DNA of 39,495 nucleotides from a virus. A program made the translations under genes and the position numbers. The stretch covers positions 1 through 39,495 of the IMG/VR virus record IMGVR_UViG_3300017971_000490. One strand, written 5' to 3'. Under the pieces are notes generated by a model. The model ran no database searches. It was given only the letters and a program-made list of their open reading frames with translations, and had not been told where the DNA came from. This document shows, one piece after another, positions 30,216 through 34,785 of the stretch (position 1 is the stretch's first letter; every line of letters starts with the position of its first letter).

Positions 30216-30469
30216 AGCTTCTTCACTATATTGTGTTTCGTGCGCTTCAGTCCCAGGGCCTGCCTCCGGGTGTTTATGTACTTCATGGTCCGGTCGCTGC
30301 AGATGATTTCAATTCCCGGCATATACCAAAGGACGGTAAACTCTTCATCAGATAGCTGAGCGAAAAAGGACTTGGATAGAAACGTGGTTCTTGAGTCATT
30401 CTGGACCTGGAGCTTATTCATTAGTTGCCGATACTTCTCCGGGTCTTCCTTATATTGTTTCGATCCCAT
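30212..30469 (-). CDS. Hypothetical protein after terminase, 85 aa
   Basis: An 85-aa basic protein (MGSKQYKEDPEKYRQLMNKLQ ... FFAQLSDEEFTVLWYMPGIEIICSDRTMKYINTRRQALGLKRTKHNIVKKL). The C-terminal half contains a possible helix-turn-helix (SDRTMKYINTRRQALGLK). It overlaps the large terminase gene by 20 nt, so it is cotranslated with it; role unknown. Confidence 0.5.
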   Translation of the reverse strand: MGSKQYKEDPEKYRQLMNKLQVQNDSRTTFLSKSFFAQLSDEEFTVLWYMPGIEIICSDRTMKYINTRRQALGLKRTKHNIVKKL

Positions 30470-31928
30470 AGATTTGTGATTCTTGTGTTTCGTATTTATC
30501 TATTGCCATAGTGGTTACGTCCACCTGGTCATCGTGCTGTGCGTTCGGGAACATCCGTAATTCATAGAGATACGGTTCCAGCCAGGGTGCATCCAGCAAA
30601 AGAAATACCCTGCCAGACTCCATAAACGGAGTGCATTTGCTTGTCCTGGTAATCTTATCCAGGGTTGGGGCTTTGTCGATTATGATATTCAGGCCGGTGT
30701 TCGCCTTCATCATTTGAGCGACACTGATCCCGGATGCTTTTGGCTCAATGTATATCCAGGACTCACGGGACCCCTCGTTGCGCTGTACGAACTGAGGAAT
30801 AAACTTTAAAAGCTCTGGCATTCCGAGTCTAACTGTTGCCACTTCTCGAATATAAAGATTATTATACTTACGAGCGTAAGCCATAATTGCAGTGGGGTCA
30901 TTGTCTTGCTCTTCCGTATAAGCAGGATCAATAGTAAAATCCCAGACCAGATCAGTCTGCTCTTCAAATATTCTTCTTTTGAGATCATCTAAAACGAAAT
31001 AGTTAAACCATGCAATTTTAATCAAGGCCCCTTCTTCCGGGGCAGGGCGTTGCTGATACAGGCTGGTAAATACCCGGTTGCTGGTCTTCCTAATCACGTT
31101 CAACCTTTCAATAGAGTGTCTACCAGGCCACAAAGCCTGTCCCTCTTCCCGTTGGTCCGTTTCGGTCTTAGGTCCCTCCTTTACTGCTGGGAACACCACG
31201 AAATCCCAATGCTCTTTTGTTTCCTCTATGGATTTGATAATTCTTCCGGCTAGATCATCTTCATGCCAACGGGTCATTGTGAGTAATATTCTGGCGTCAT
31301 CGTGTAACCTGGTGAAGAATACATTATTGTACCAATCCCAAACACGGTCCCGGTATCGCTCCGAATACGCCTGTCCAGCATCCTTTACCGGGTCATCTAT
31401 AATTCCAATATCAACTGGCCTACCGGTAAGACCGGTCATAACACCGACAGATACCAGGGACCCTTCCCGTCCGAATATTTCAAACTCAGAACTGGTCCTT
31501 ATCATCCCACTCCTGGGAACCTTATTACCGGCCAACTTTGTGGCTGGAAAGATTTGTTGATATGCCGGGCTTTCTATGATACGCTGTACCTTTCTGTTAA
31601 ACTGTGATGCCAACCCTTGTTCATAGCTACATACTGCAATACGTTGGTCCGGGTTCCTTCCCAGGAGAAAAGCCGGAAGCCGTCTACTGACTAACTCCGA
31701 CTTACCATGCTGCGGAGGCATGAACACCATAAGCCTTTTGATTTCACCACTGGCAAGCCTGTCCAGTTTTGATGCAAGTACCTTATGAAATGGTTGAACA
31801 ATGTAATCCGATTTAGTATGCTTGGTAAAATCAATTAGCTTCGTCTGTGCCCTCTTCAGTGACCAACTCTGCAACTCTGCTAAGTAATTCAAATATTTCG
31901 TCCTGTTTGTCATCTGGTAGTGCTTCAA
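30450..31928 (-). CDS. terL: Large terminase subunit (TerL)
   Basis: A 492-aa terminase. The ATPase part has a Walker-A-like PPQHGKSE at residues 71-78 (VFMPPQHGKSELVSRR), a motor strand (RIAVCSYEQGLASQF) and Walker B (VDIGIIDDPV), then LTMTRWHEDDLAGRI (motif III). The nuclease part has DFTIDPAYTEE and the late NAQHDDQVDVTT, the acidic residues of an RNase-H-like nuclease. It cuts the concatemer and drives it into the prohead. It overlaps the small terminase gene by 98 nt, which is long; a later start would remove N-terminal conserved residues before the ATPase core. Confidence 0.9.
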   Translation of the reverse strand: MKHYQMTNRTKYLNYLAELQSWSLKRAQTKLIDFTKHTKSDYIVQPFHKVLASKLDRLASGEIKRLMVFMPPQHGKSELVSRRLPAFLLGRNPDQRIAVCSYEQGLASQFNRKVQRIIESPAYQQIFPATKLAGNKVPRSGMIRTSSEFEIFGREGSLVSVGVMTGLTGRPVDIGIIDDPVKDAGQAYSERYRDRVWDWYNNVFFTRLHDDARILLTMTRWHEDDLAGRIIKSIEETKEHWDFVVFPAVKEGPKTETDQREEGQALWPGRHSIERLNVIRKTSNRVFTSLYQQRPAPEEGALIKIAWFNYFVLDDLKRRIFEEQTDLVWDFTIDPAYTEEQDNDPTAIMAYARKYNNLYIREVATVRLGMPELLKFIPQFVQRNEGSRESWIYIEPKASGISVAQMMKANTGLNIIIDKAPTLDKITRTSKCTPFMESGRVFLLLDAPWLEPYLYELRMFPNAQHDDQVDVTTMAIDKYETQESQIYGIETI

Positions 31929-32382
31929 TTTCCGGAGGGACCTGGTACACCGGGTTACTCATTTCCAGTTGAACAGTTTCTTTCCATCCAGCCCTGGTCT
32001 TCATCCAGAATATCTGAGCCGATACGTTTCCCCGGTCCTTTAGGATGTCTTCGTAAACGACCATCCCGGCATTGTTGATTACCGGGTTCCCATCACTATC
32101 TGTCTTTGGAACTCGCTCATAGATTGGCCGGCATGAGTCAAACAGCCATTGGGACACCTGGAAATTGGCTCTGTATACCCCTATTTGATAAGCTGCCAAA
32201 ACTTCCGGGTCCTCATGGAATCGTCTGTGGAGTGTTCTTTCCGACATGTCAAGCATCTCAGCTATTGCCCATATCGGAACACCCCTGCCGGCATACAGTT
32301 GTATCTTCTGCTTATCAATATCTGACAATTCAATCTTTGGCCTGCCTCCCGGGTTCTTCGTGCTTTCTGGTAATGTTTCCAT
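31831..32382 (-). CDS. terS: Small terminase subunit (TerS)
   Basis: A 183-aa protein. Residues 26-52 form a helix-turn-helix (KIQLYAGRGVPIWAIAEML, then SERTLHRRFHED), followed by a helical oligomerisation region (AYQIGVYRANFQVSQWLFDS) and a conserved NVSAQIFWMKTRAGWKE segment typical of small terminases. The C-terminus is acidic. It binds the packaging site and starts the first cut with TerL, encoded just downstream. It follows the tRNA and its position fits the usual small-to-large terminase order. Confidence 0.85.
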   Translation of the reverse strand: METLPESTKNPGGRPKIELSDIDKQKIQLYAGRGVPIWAIAEMLDMSERTLHRRFHEDPEVLAAYQIGVYRANFQVSQWLFDSCRPIYERVPKTDSDGNPVINNAGMVVYEDILKDRGNVSAQIFWMKTRAGWKETVQLEMSNPVYQVPPEIEALPDDKQDEIFELLSRVAELVTEEGTDEAN

Positions 32383-32398
32383 GTTTTGTCAGTTTTCG

Positions 32399-32471
32399 TA
32401 GCAAGGGAGGGATTCGAACCCCCGACCTCTTGATCATGAATCAAGCGAGCTGACCGCTGCTCCACCTTGCA
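32399..32471 (-). tRNA. tRNA with CAU anticodon, initiator-like
   Basis: A complete 73-nt cloverleaf fits: acceptor UGCAAGG with CCUUGCU (first pair U-U mismatched), U8, G9, D stem GAGC/GCUC, anticodon stem CUUGA/UCAAG, loop UUCAUGA with CAU, variable loop AGGUC, T stem GGGGG/CCCUC, and A73. No CCA is encoded. The unpaired 1-72 position, the A11-U24 D-stem pair and the GUGGAGCAGC...AGCUCG match to initiator tRNAs suggest an initiator origin, but the three G-C anticodon-stem pairs of initiators are absent and position 37 is G rather than A. Confidence 0.9.
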
Positions 32472-32953: not shown

Positions 32954-34108
32954 TTAAAATGTTGGTTTGCCACCCCAATAGCCTCCACCTGGTCGAAACC
33001 TTTCTGGTTCCACATAAGGAAGCTGTGCTTTCATGGCGAATGGATCGCCGTTATACATAGTCTTAGTGAGCTCTTCCCAGGACCCACTATACTGATTGAA
33101 CTTTTTTACAGCATCGTTTCGCTTCTGAGGAAATGGTTGGCTGGAATACTTAAACCATTTTTTCATAACGACCTGCTTCTGCTTCTCGGCTCTTTCCGCT
33201 ATCCACTCCGGAGCCTCTTTTATACAAGCCCTGTTAAAGCAATCTTCCCAGGTTTCCCCGTATCGCCGGAAGGGCATGATCGCTTTCTTTCCGTAATTGA
33301 CAGCCATCCTTACCCCAGGAAGCCTTTCGGAAACACGATCAAACCACTTCGGCCAGGCCCGTGCCGCAGCCTGTAATAACTTTAATCCGATACTGGACAT
33401 AGTTGGCGGCGCAATCCGTAGCTGCTGCTTACTGATCCCGGATCGAAACATGGTATCGTAAGCCTCATTGTAATCCAGCCCGTAATCTTTAATGAACTTC
33501 CATACATCCCCGTCAGTCCAATCATATAGTGGCCGGGCCTTGATAATGTTACCGTGATTTTTGGTAAGATAGCCCTTTGAAGATTTGATTGCCAGCACCC
33601 TCCTGGGTGATTCACTGGTCCTGATCCCGATTGTATTGTAAAGCAGCGTGTCCTTATCCCAGCCGAATCGTTCATGTGTTACCAGGGCCTCAATGTTCAT
33701 TTCTGGAATAGCATAAGCGAAATCAGGAGGGGTTCTTACCCAATCATCGGGTTCCAGTATAGGATCAAACACCCAAAAATACGGCTCCCTGCGATTATAG
33801 GCGTTTACTACTGGCTGGTTAGCGTATATCCAATGGAACTCTACTCCTGGTCGATTGGCAATACGCTCTGCATATTCAAATGTGCCTGGGAGCATGATCT
33901 CTTCGTCACGCATAATCACAATTACCGGATCACTTATACCGTACATTTGCTTTGCGATCAAAGCCAATTCCACCATAACCCCTGAGTCCTTCCCTGCGGA
34001 AAAACTGATAACAACCTTCCCGGTCCTATACATATATTCGAAGCGATTCAGGGCCGCATCGAACACATTATCCCCGGTATAAAACCGATATGATTTTGCT
34101 AATCCCAT
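32954..34108 (-). CDS. PP-loop enzyme, PAPS-reductase/DndC/IbrA-like
   Basis: A 384-aa PP-loop protein. The loop is SAGKDS at residues 37-42 (VVISFSAGKDSGVMVELAL), followed by IVIMRDEEIMLPGTFEYAERI and a TIGIRTSESPRRVLAIKSS motif, and KARPLYDWTDGDVWKFIKDYGLDYNEAYD, the family's downstream signature. This group includes PAPS reductase, DndC and IbrA. The Cys clusters of true PAPS reductases or Fe-S DndC are absent, so I infer a nucleotide-adenylating step, possibly in nucleic-acid modification. It overlaps the methyltransferase gene by 10 nt. A sulfotransferase-like gene lies 2 kb upstream in the same operon direction. Confidence 0.8.
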   Translation of the reverse strand: MGLAKSYRFYTGDNVFDAALNRFEYMYRTGKVVISFSAGKDSGVMVELALIAKQMYGISDPVIVIMRDEEIMLPGTFEYAERIANRPGVEFHWIYANQPVVNAYNRREPYFWVFDPILEPDDWVRTPPDFAYAIPEMNIEALVTHERFGWDKDTLLYNTIGIRTSESPRRVLAIKSSKGYLTKNHGNIIKARPLYDWTDGDVWKFIKDYGLDYNEAYDTMFRSGISKQQLRIAPPTMSSIGLKLLQAAARAWPKWFDRVSERLPGVRMAVNYGKKAIMPFRRYGETWEDCFNRACIKEAPEWIAERAEKQKQVVMKKWFKYSSQPFPQKRNDAVKKFNQYSGSWEELTKTMYNGDPFAMKAQLPYVEPERFRPGGGYWGGKPTF

Positions 34109-34785
34109 TTAATTTTCAATGTTATGTAGTTGGAATCTCCCAAGCGTCTGCCTGGTTTATTGGCTTTGTGTAGCTTACGCTTTATCATGAACCGGGGATA
34201 TGATTCTTTCTTTCTCATTCCATCCGGTATGTAATGGCCTTCCACAGTCACGGCTCCTTTGATCTGTGCCGCCAAATTGATCGCTTCCATTGGTGTTATA
34301 CCGGTACGCTCAACATCGCTACCGTTCATTCCATAAATATATGGATCATGGTGAGTCTTGTTATAATACATTAGATACCCGTAGGCCCCAGGCTTTGCAA
34401 TCTGATTTAATGCGTAAAAATATTCTTTACGGAAGTAGCTTGGTGATCCAAATAAGGCGAGTATAACATCGTATTTCATTCCGACCTGTGCGATGTGGCG
34501 AACATATTCGCTTGCCTGATCAATAACAAAATACTTGTGAGGATGCTTTTTCCGTGCAAGATTAACCATCATTGCAGAAATATCTACTCCGGTATAATCC
34601 GCACAATACTGTTCATCCAGGAGCATGCCTGTTCCGCATCCCAGGTCAAGGACCTTACCTATTGCTAAATTACAGTTCTTTCTGATCTCGGCAAGAATGA
34701 AATCATTCTCTATTTGGAAATATGGTTTGGCATAAACTTCATCGTACTTATTGGCGATTTTGTTGTAATAGTCCTTTGGGGTCAT
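34099..34785 (-). CDS. Class I SAM-dependent methyltransferase
   Basis: A 228-aa methyltransferase. Motif I is VLDLGCGTGM (45-54), the acidic end of strand 2 is in TGVDISAMMVNLARKK (65-80), and motif IV-like ILALFGSPSYF follows at 108-118, lacking the NPPY or DPPY of DNA N-methyltransferases. The C-terminus is basic (KLHKANKPGRRLGD). Substrate unknown: it could act on nucleic acid, protein or a small molecule. It has its own promoter (34802-34831), and it is coupled to the PP-loop gene, so the two probably serve one pathway. Confidence 0.8.
   Translation of the reverse strand: MTPKDYYNKIANKYDEVYAKPYFQIENDFILAEIRKNCNLAIGKVLDLGCGTGMLLDEQYCADYTGVDISAMMVNLARKKHPHKYFVIDQASEYVRHIAQVGMKYDVILALFGSPSYFRKEYFYALNQIAKPGAYGYLMYYNKTHHDPYIYGMNGSDVERTGITPMEAINLAAQIKGAVTVEGHYIPDGMRKKESYPRFMIKRKLHKANKPGRRLGDSNYITLKIKWD

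Follow-up and report, generated by a model that had tools for sequence, protein, structure and literature searches.

Bacterial initiator tRNA (tRNA-fMet) has the anticodon CAU, no Watson-Crick pair between positions 1 and 72, three consecutive G-C pairs in the anticodon stem (29-41, 30-40, and 31-39, or 3GC), and A37. According to PMC7949028, formylation and use as an initiator are set by the missing 1-72 pair along with G2-C71, C3-G70, and A11-U24. In E. coli, 3GC-mutant and C30G40-mutant initiators are fully aminoacylated and formylated and are poor at initiation (PMC2268962). The 3GC mutants do initiate if initiator tRNA genes are deleted, if formylation is low, or if 16S methylation is missing (PMC7949028).

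tRNA-fMet is also a target of toxins. VapC toxins cleave it in the anticodon stem-loop (PMC7180214), and overexpression of metZWV partially rescues cells from a toxin that cuts tRNA-fMet (PMC8522696). Changes in the anticodon loops of phage tRNAs have been proposed to evade nucleases, and in the Shigella VapC case, tRNA-fMet is reported to be a tRNA that phages generally avoid (PMC10264068). For Shigella phage Sf14, the Met tRNAs are reported not to be tRNA-fMet.

We analyzed the single tRNA gene of IMG/VR virus record IMGVR_UViG_3300017971_000490; "the window" is this whole stretch of 39,495 nt. The phage tRNA resembles canonical bacterial tRNA-fMet (we compared it to E. coli metZWV and to L423, a chromosomal copy from Bacteroidota) in its CAU anticodon, 1-72 mismatch, G2-C71, C3-G70, A11-U24, A73, and D arm. 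Thus, all of the formylation elements listed in PMC7949028 are present. The phage tRNA differs in that only the middle one of the three G-C pairs remains, in having U32 instead of C32 and G37 instead of A37, and in being phage-borne and adjoining the gene for the small subunit of terminase (terS). We call it initiator-type, not canonical tRNA-fMet, because it has just one of the three G-C pairs.

A second point of comparison is a "3GC mutant" that was constructed in E. coli, U29C30A31:U39G40A41 (PMC2268962). It has an initiator body, U29-A41, and A31-U39, as in the phage tRNA. In that hand-made construct, the middle pair was replaced as well (C30-G40), while the phage tRNA is natural, keeps G30-C40, and adds U32 and G37. 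Like the phage tRNAs that have been proposed to evade nucleases (PMC10264068), ours has an anticodon arm that is altered relative to the host's, as judged in this case from sequence alone. The phages in that study are reported to generally avoid tRNA-fMet, while initiator-type phage tRNAs are common in our survey and are changed in both stem and loop. We looked in the literature for phage initiator tRNAs that lack part of 3GC and found no report of any; most subscription journals were outside the search, which makes this weak evidence of absence.

Identity of the phage tRNA

The features that we discuss are listed in Table 1. ARAGORN, run on the whole record, found no other tRNA gene and called this one as tRNA-Met(cat) at 32398-32471 on the minus strand. 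Rfam model RF00005 matches it with 63.2 bits (the gathering score is 29; E = 1.4e-11), and the match is complete (model positions 1-71). We considered a chance tRNA-like fold and rejected it given the ARAGORN call and the RF00005 match. On its own, the minimum free energy of the tRNA is unexceptional (z = -0.81). From 5' to 3', the gene reads TGCAAGG TG GAGC AGCGGTCA GCTC G CTTGA TTCATGA and then TCAAG AGGTC GGGGG TTCGAAT CCCTC CCTTGCT A. The CCA end is not encoded in the gene.

Table 1. Features at and around the tRNA gene in the window.
Feature	Coordinates	Strand	Basis
Terminase large subunit	30450..31928	-	phrog_38, E = 4.4e-99
Terminase small subunit (terS)	31831..32382	-	phrog_309, E = 3.3e-15
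Initiator-type tRNA, anticodon CAU, 73 nt without CCA	32399..32471	-	ARAGORN, Rfam RF00005, cloverleaf
Anticodon arm CUUGA-UUCAUGA-UCAAG	32429..32445	-	sequence; fold of whole tRNA and of isolated arm
Unknown gene, 154 amino acids	32477..32941	-	ORF
PAPS-reductase-like PP-loop protein	32954..34108	-	
SAM methyltransferase	34099..34785	-	best PHROG is a tRNA methyltransferase, E = 1.4e-6

An earlier note, made from the sequence alone, described the CAU anticodon, an unpaired U1·U72, A11-U24, an initiator-like D arm, the stem CUUGA/UCAAG, and G37, and all of these are present. We first counted U1·U72 among the candidates for an unusual trait and dropped it: the canonical Bacteroidota initiator L423 has the same mismatch, so it is an ordinary feature. 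The note also said that all three G-C pairs of the anticodon stem were lost. This is correct for 29-41 (U-A) and 31-39 (A-U), but 30-40 is still G-C.

That the tRNA is of the initiator type is well supported. Among the matches listed, the 14 sequences nearest to it are all initiator type, and 13 of the 14 are viral. The note had left open whether this was a phage initiator, an elongator derived from one, or a decoy. The first option is the best supported, as the elements for formylation and initiator identity are kept and those 14 relatives are of the initiator type.

The phage tRNA could instead be an initiator-derived elongator, either tRNA-Met or a tRNA-Ile2 (with lysidine), but this is very improbable. 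The viral elongator-type CAU tRNAs that we sampled are mostly C11-G24 with a paired 1-72, while the phage tRNA keeps U1·U72 and A11-U24, which are not those of the elongator body of tRNA-Ile2 either. The stem does offer some support for the elongator reading: the full G-C signature is absent, and among 20 viral elongator-like CAU tRNAs with G1-C72, A31-U39 was common (16/20). G-C at 30-40, which viral initiator-type tRNAs mostly keep, is present in just 10 of these 20. A31-U39 is thus shared with the phage tRNA, but none of their body features are. Elongator Met and Ile2 tRNAs are expected to have t6A37, which G37 would preclude. Grouping with either type would have refuted the note's reading, so we compared the tRNA to both, and it grouped with neither.

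A predicted closed anticodon loop

In the loop, U32 takes the place of the usual C32, and it is accompanied by G37 and A38. When we folded either the whole tRNA or the isolated arm, U32-A38 and U33·G37 were predicted to close the arm around a CAU triloop. The predicted probability that 33 and 37 pair is 0.79 for the phage tRNA and averages 0.80 for arms with U32 and G37, versus 0.03 for cellular (canonical) arms; these are nearest-neighbor predictions for bare RNA, without modifications or the ribosome. With A37, the phage arm still has a predicted value of 0.67, so U32 weighs the most in it. The inner arm of the phage tRNA, GATTCATGATC, is also found in four other viral tRNAs, and outside of the anticodon arm these five tRNAs are 62-88% alike.

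Initiator-type tRNAs in viruses

We searched IMG/VR with two patterns. The first combined a degenerate initiator D arm with a CAT anticodon and matched at least 119 stretches; the second left the D arm unspecified and matched at least 120. Among the listed matches to the second pattern, 57 of 87 distinct parsed CAU tRNAs were of the A11-U24 type. The matches listed gave 150 distinct initiator-type tRNAs, at most 2 of which came from a narrower scan for changes at 31-39. (A scan that targeted G37 was kept separate.) All of the counts out of 150 or 146 below are among the matches listed.

Incomplete 3GC is widespread in these viral tRNAs. G30-C40 is kept in 142 of the 150, while 31-39 is not G-C in 45, and the middle pair is the sole survivor of 3GC in 31. 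The change is not obligatory, as 32/150 retain the full 3GC. Nor are the stems decaying: 31-39 is a standard pair in 148 of the 150, which were identified by a finder that demands at least 4 of 5 stem pairs, so the stems seem to be maintained. A Watson-Crick pair at 1-72 is present in 36/146, so some of the viral initiator-type tRNAs may enter elongation.

G37 is rare (4/150). The G37 scan, across all of IMG/VR, found 50 loci, of which about 41 are initiator type. In viral initiator-type tRNAs, G37 goes with U32 (17/37 versus 5/146, P = 6e-10) and with A31-U39 (8/37 versus 5/146, P = 8e-4). The covariation of U32 and G37 is consistent with a coordinated change in the loop.

Named phages also have CAU tRNAs with an initiator-type body and incomplete 3GC. 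For example, in Streptococcus phage Javan59, Xanthomonas phage Elanor, Alishewanella phage Slicko01, and Erwinia phage Kaldavass, 29-41 is U-A or A-U. Unlike the tRNA in the window, these four still have G-C at 31-39 and A at position 37. Phage initiator-type tRNAs tend to be labelled as tRNA-Met only or to lack annotation. The tRNA of Elanor (ON189045.1, L475:1500-1573) is unannotated, has U29-A41, and lies in the gap downstream of the gene for the large subunit of terminase. A faecal phage (MT838538.1, L481:2493-2566) has an initiator-type tRNA with U37, the loop CUCAUUA, and the middle G-C pair only. Mesorhizobium phage vB_MseS-P1 (L480:1499-1571) has an unannotated CAU tRNA with G11-C24 that overlaps an annotated repressor gene.

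Comparison to cellular genomes

Our earlier control, from genome contigs, drew on unusual lineages, so we added three phylum-wide controls: 198 genomes centered on one from Bacteroidetes, 100 on an alphaproteobacterial one, and 100 on one from Bacillota. The same kind of pattern gave 63 matches in 54 genomes of the first group, 127 in 77 of the second, and 84 in 77 of the third, or 274 matches in 208 genomes. Across these three phyla, 30-40 is G-C in 274/274 matches, and G37 was found in 0/274, as all have A37. At 31-39, just 9/274 are not G-C. The difference from the viral tRNAs is highly significant (P = 1e-14, Fisher exact test), as it was with the earlier control (31-39 changed in 4/79 among the matches listed, P = 3e-6), although shared ancestry among the viral sequences means that fewer independent events lie behind these P values than they imply. 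Initiator-type tRNAs that have lost most of the 3GC signature are found in many phages and rarely in bacteria.

Six of the nine exceptions have G·U at 31-39 and are from small Bacillota-like genomes in the third control group. The other three are A-U in one genome (G001) and C-G in two (G294 and G301). G001's tRNA lies amid ORFs that, by eye, look like genes for capsid, tail, and lysis proteins, and G301's has phage replication genes and a gene for a CI-like repressor as neighbors, so two of these three are in prophage-like regions. G294's has copper-resistance genes nearby, and we found no phage structural gene in its surroundings. Another tRNA with an odd 29-41 pair, from a Bacteroidota genome (G124), lies amid genes for terminase, portal, protease, head-tail adaptor, and tape-measure proteins. 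A contig from a Bacteroidetes MAG (L282, L426) has a prophage-like region with an A31-U39 initiator-type tRNA, and this genome has a canonical initiator as well.

Cellular initiators relax 29-41 too (it is A-U in many Pseudomonadota genomes), so the loss of 29-41 alone is ordinary. This bears on the main rival to nuclease evasion, which is simple relaxation: the tRNA might be an ordinary supplementary initiator that can do without the outer two G-C pairs so long as it has G30-C40. This is quite possible. It fits the state of 29-41 in cells, the G·U pairs at 31-39 in those small genomes, and the near-constancy of the middle pair in viruses. On the other hand, Watson-Crick replacement at 31-39 is far rarer in cells, and the covariation of U32 and G37 along with the lack of G37 in cells suggests more than a loss of constraint.

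Genomic setting and host

The tRNA is one of several consecutive genes that share a strand: the 154-amino-acid gene, the tRNA, terS, and the terminase large subunit. The stop codon of the 154-amino-acid gene, which has no match in PHROG or Pfam, is 5 nt ahead of the 5' end of the tRNA, and the ATG of terS is about 16 nt past its 3' end. Just upstream in the same operon are the PP-loop protein and, beside it, the methyltransferase; either could modify nucleic acids.

The host is likely to be a member of the Bacteroidota, because gene leaders in the record are A-rich, Shine-Dalgarno-like tetramers precede just 9 of 51 genes, and relatives of the terminase include phages of Flavobacterium and Bacteroides.

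The tight spacing might suggest that the tRNA is mainly a processing signal, whose fold guides host tRNA-processing enzymes to cleave the polycistronic transcript ahead of terS, separating it from the upstream gene. We consider this far-fetched. We sought a tRNA at 28 sampled loci with relatives of TerS and found none (0/28), terminase genes are not enriched downstream of 96 viral initiator-type tRNAs, and elements for methionylation and formylation would be needless in a mere signal. More broadly, among the neighbors of 96 and 113 viral initiator-type tRNAs, no gene family was common to more than 2-3 members. With the sampled TerS loci free of tRNAs and no family shared by the neighbors, we dropped the association of tRNA and terminase as a coincidence, despite the example of Javan59. 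There, an unannotated initiator-type tRNA with U29-A41 and U32 (MK448817.1, L472:2499-2572) precedes the gene for the small subunit of terminase by about 100 nt, an arrangement like that in our 39,495-nt record.

Possible functions

Our favored reading, to which we give a probability of roughly 0.45, is that the phage carries an initiator tRNA that can be formylated and has a relaxed anticodon arm, and that this tRNA supplements or replaces the host's tRNA-fMet when that is depleted or is attacked in its anticodon arm. The tRNA would be transcribed within the operon, just upstream of terS, and excised by the host's tRNA-processing enzymes. It would be charged with methionine by way of CAU and A73 and formylated by way of the 1-72 mismatch, G2-C71, C3-G70, and A11-U24; the mismatch would also keep it off EF-Tu. 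It would then enter the P site with the single retained pair, G30-C40, presumably the one that matters most there. The reason that we propose for the altered arm is that, reshaped by the changes at 29-41, 31-39, 32, and 37, the tRNA might be a poor substrate for nucleases and still be adequate for initiation when the host's tRNA-fMet is scarce. It would matter when that tRNA is depleted or is cut in the anticodon arm, as by VapC-type nucleases. Counting against a backup role, 3GC-mutant initiators of E. coli initiate poorly de novo when initiator tRNA is at its normal level (PMC2268962).

A stronger version is that phages have a distinct class of initiator tRNA whose signature is G30-C40 alone, and that in the U32/G37 subset, the closed arm with its CAU triloop is shaped to escape cleavage by host defenses, so that phage translation could start while host initiation is shut off. 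We view this as speculative and rather unlikely.

The second rival to evasion is that the tRNA is a decoy or takes over the host: once charged and formylated, it would occupy IF2/IF3 or immature 30S subunits, and either lower the fidelity of initiation or block initiation by the host. A 3GC-mutant initiator can cause defects in 30S biogenesis in E. coli (PMC7949028), and the predicted triloop in the U32/G37 arm could hinder decoding. But the tRNA is in an operon of structural genes, beside terminase, at a stage when the phage still needs initiation, and it is not obvious why G30-C40 would be kept if the P site is never entered. A decoy therefore seems improbable.

Because phage initiator-type tRNAs tend to be labelled as tRNA-Met only or to be unannotated, the survey bears on the view that phages generally avoid tRNA-fMet where VapC targets it (PMC10264068). 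And with the outer two pairs often lost and the middle pair staying, nature seems to have run an experiment in phages that allows the role of each pair to be tested outside of laboratory mutants.
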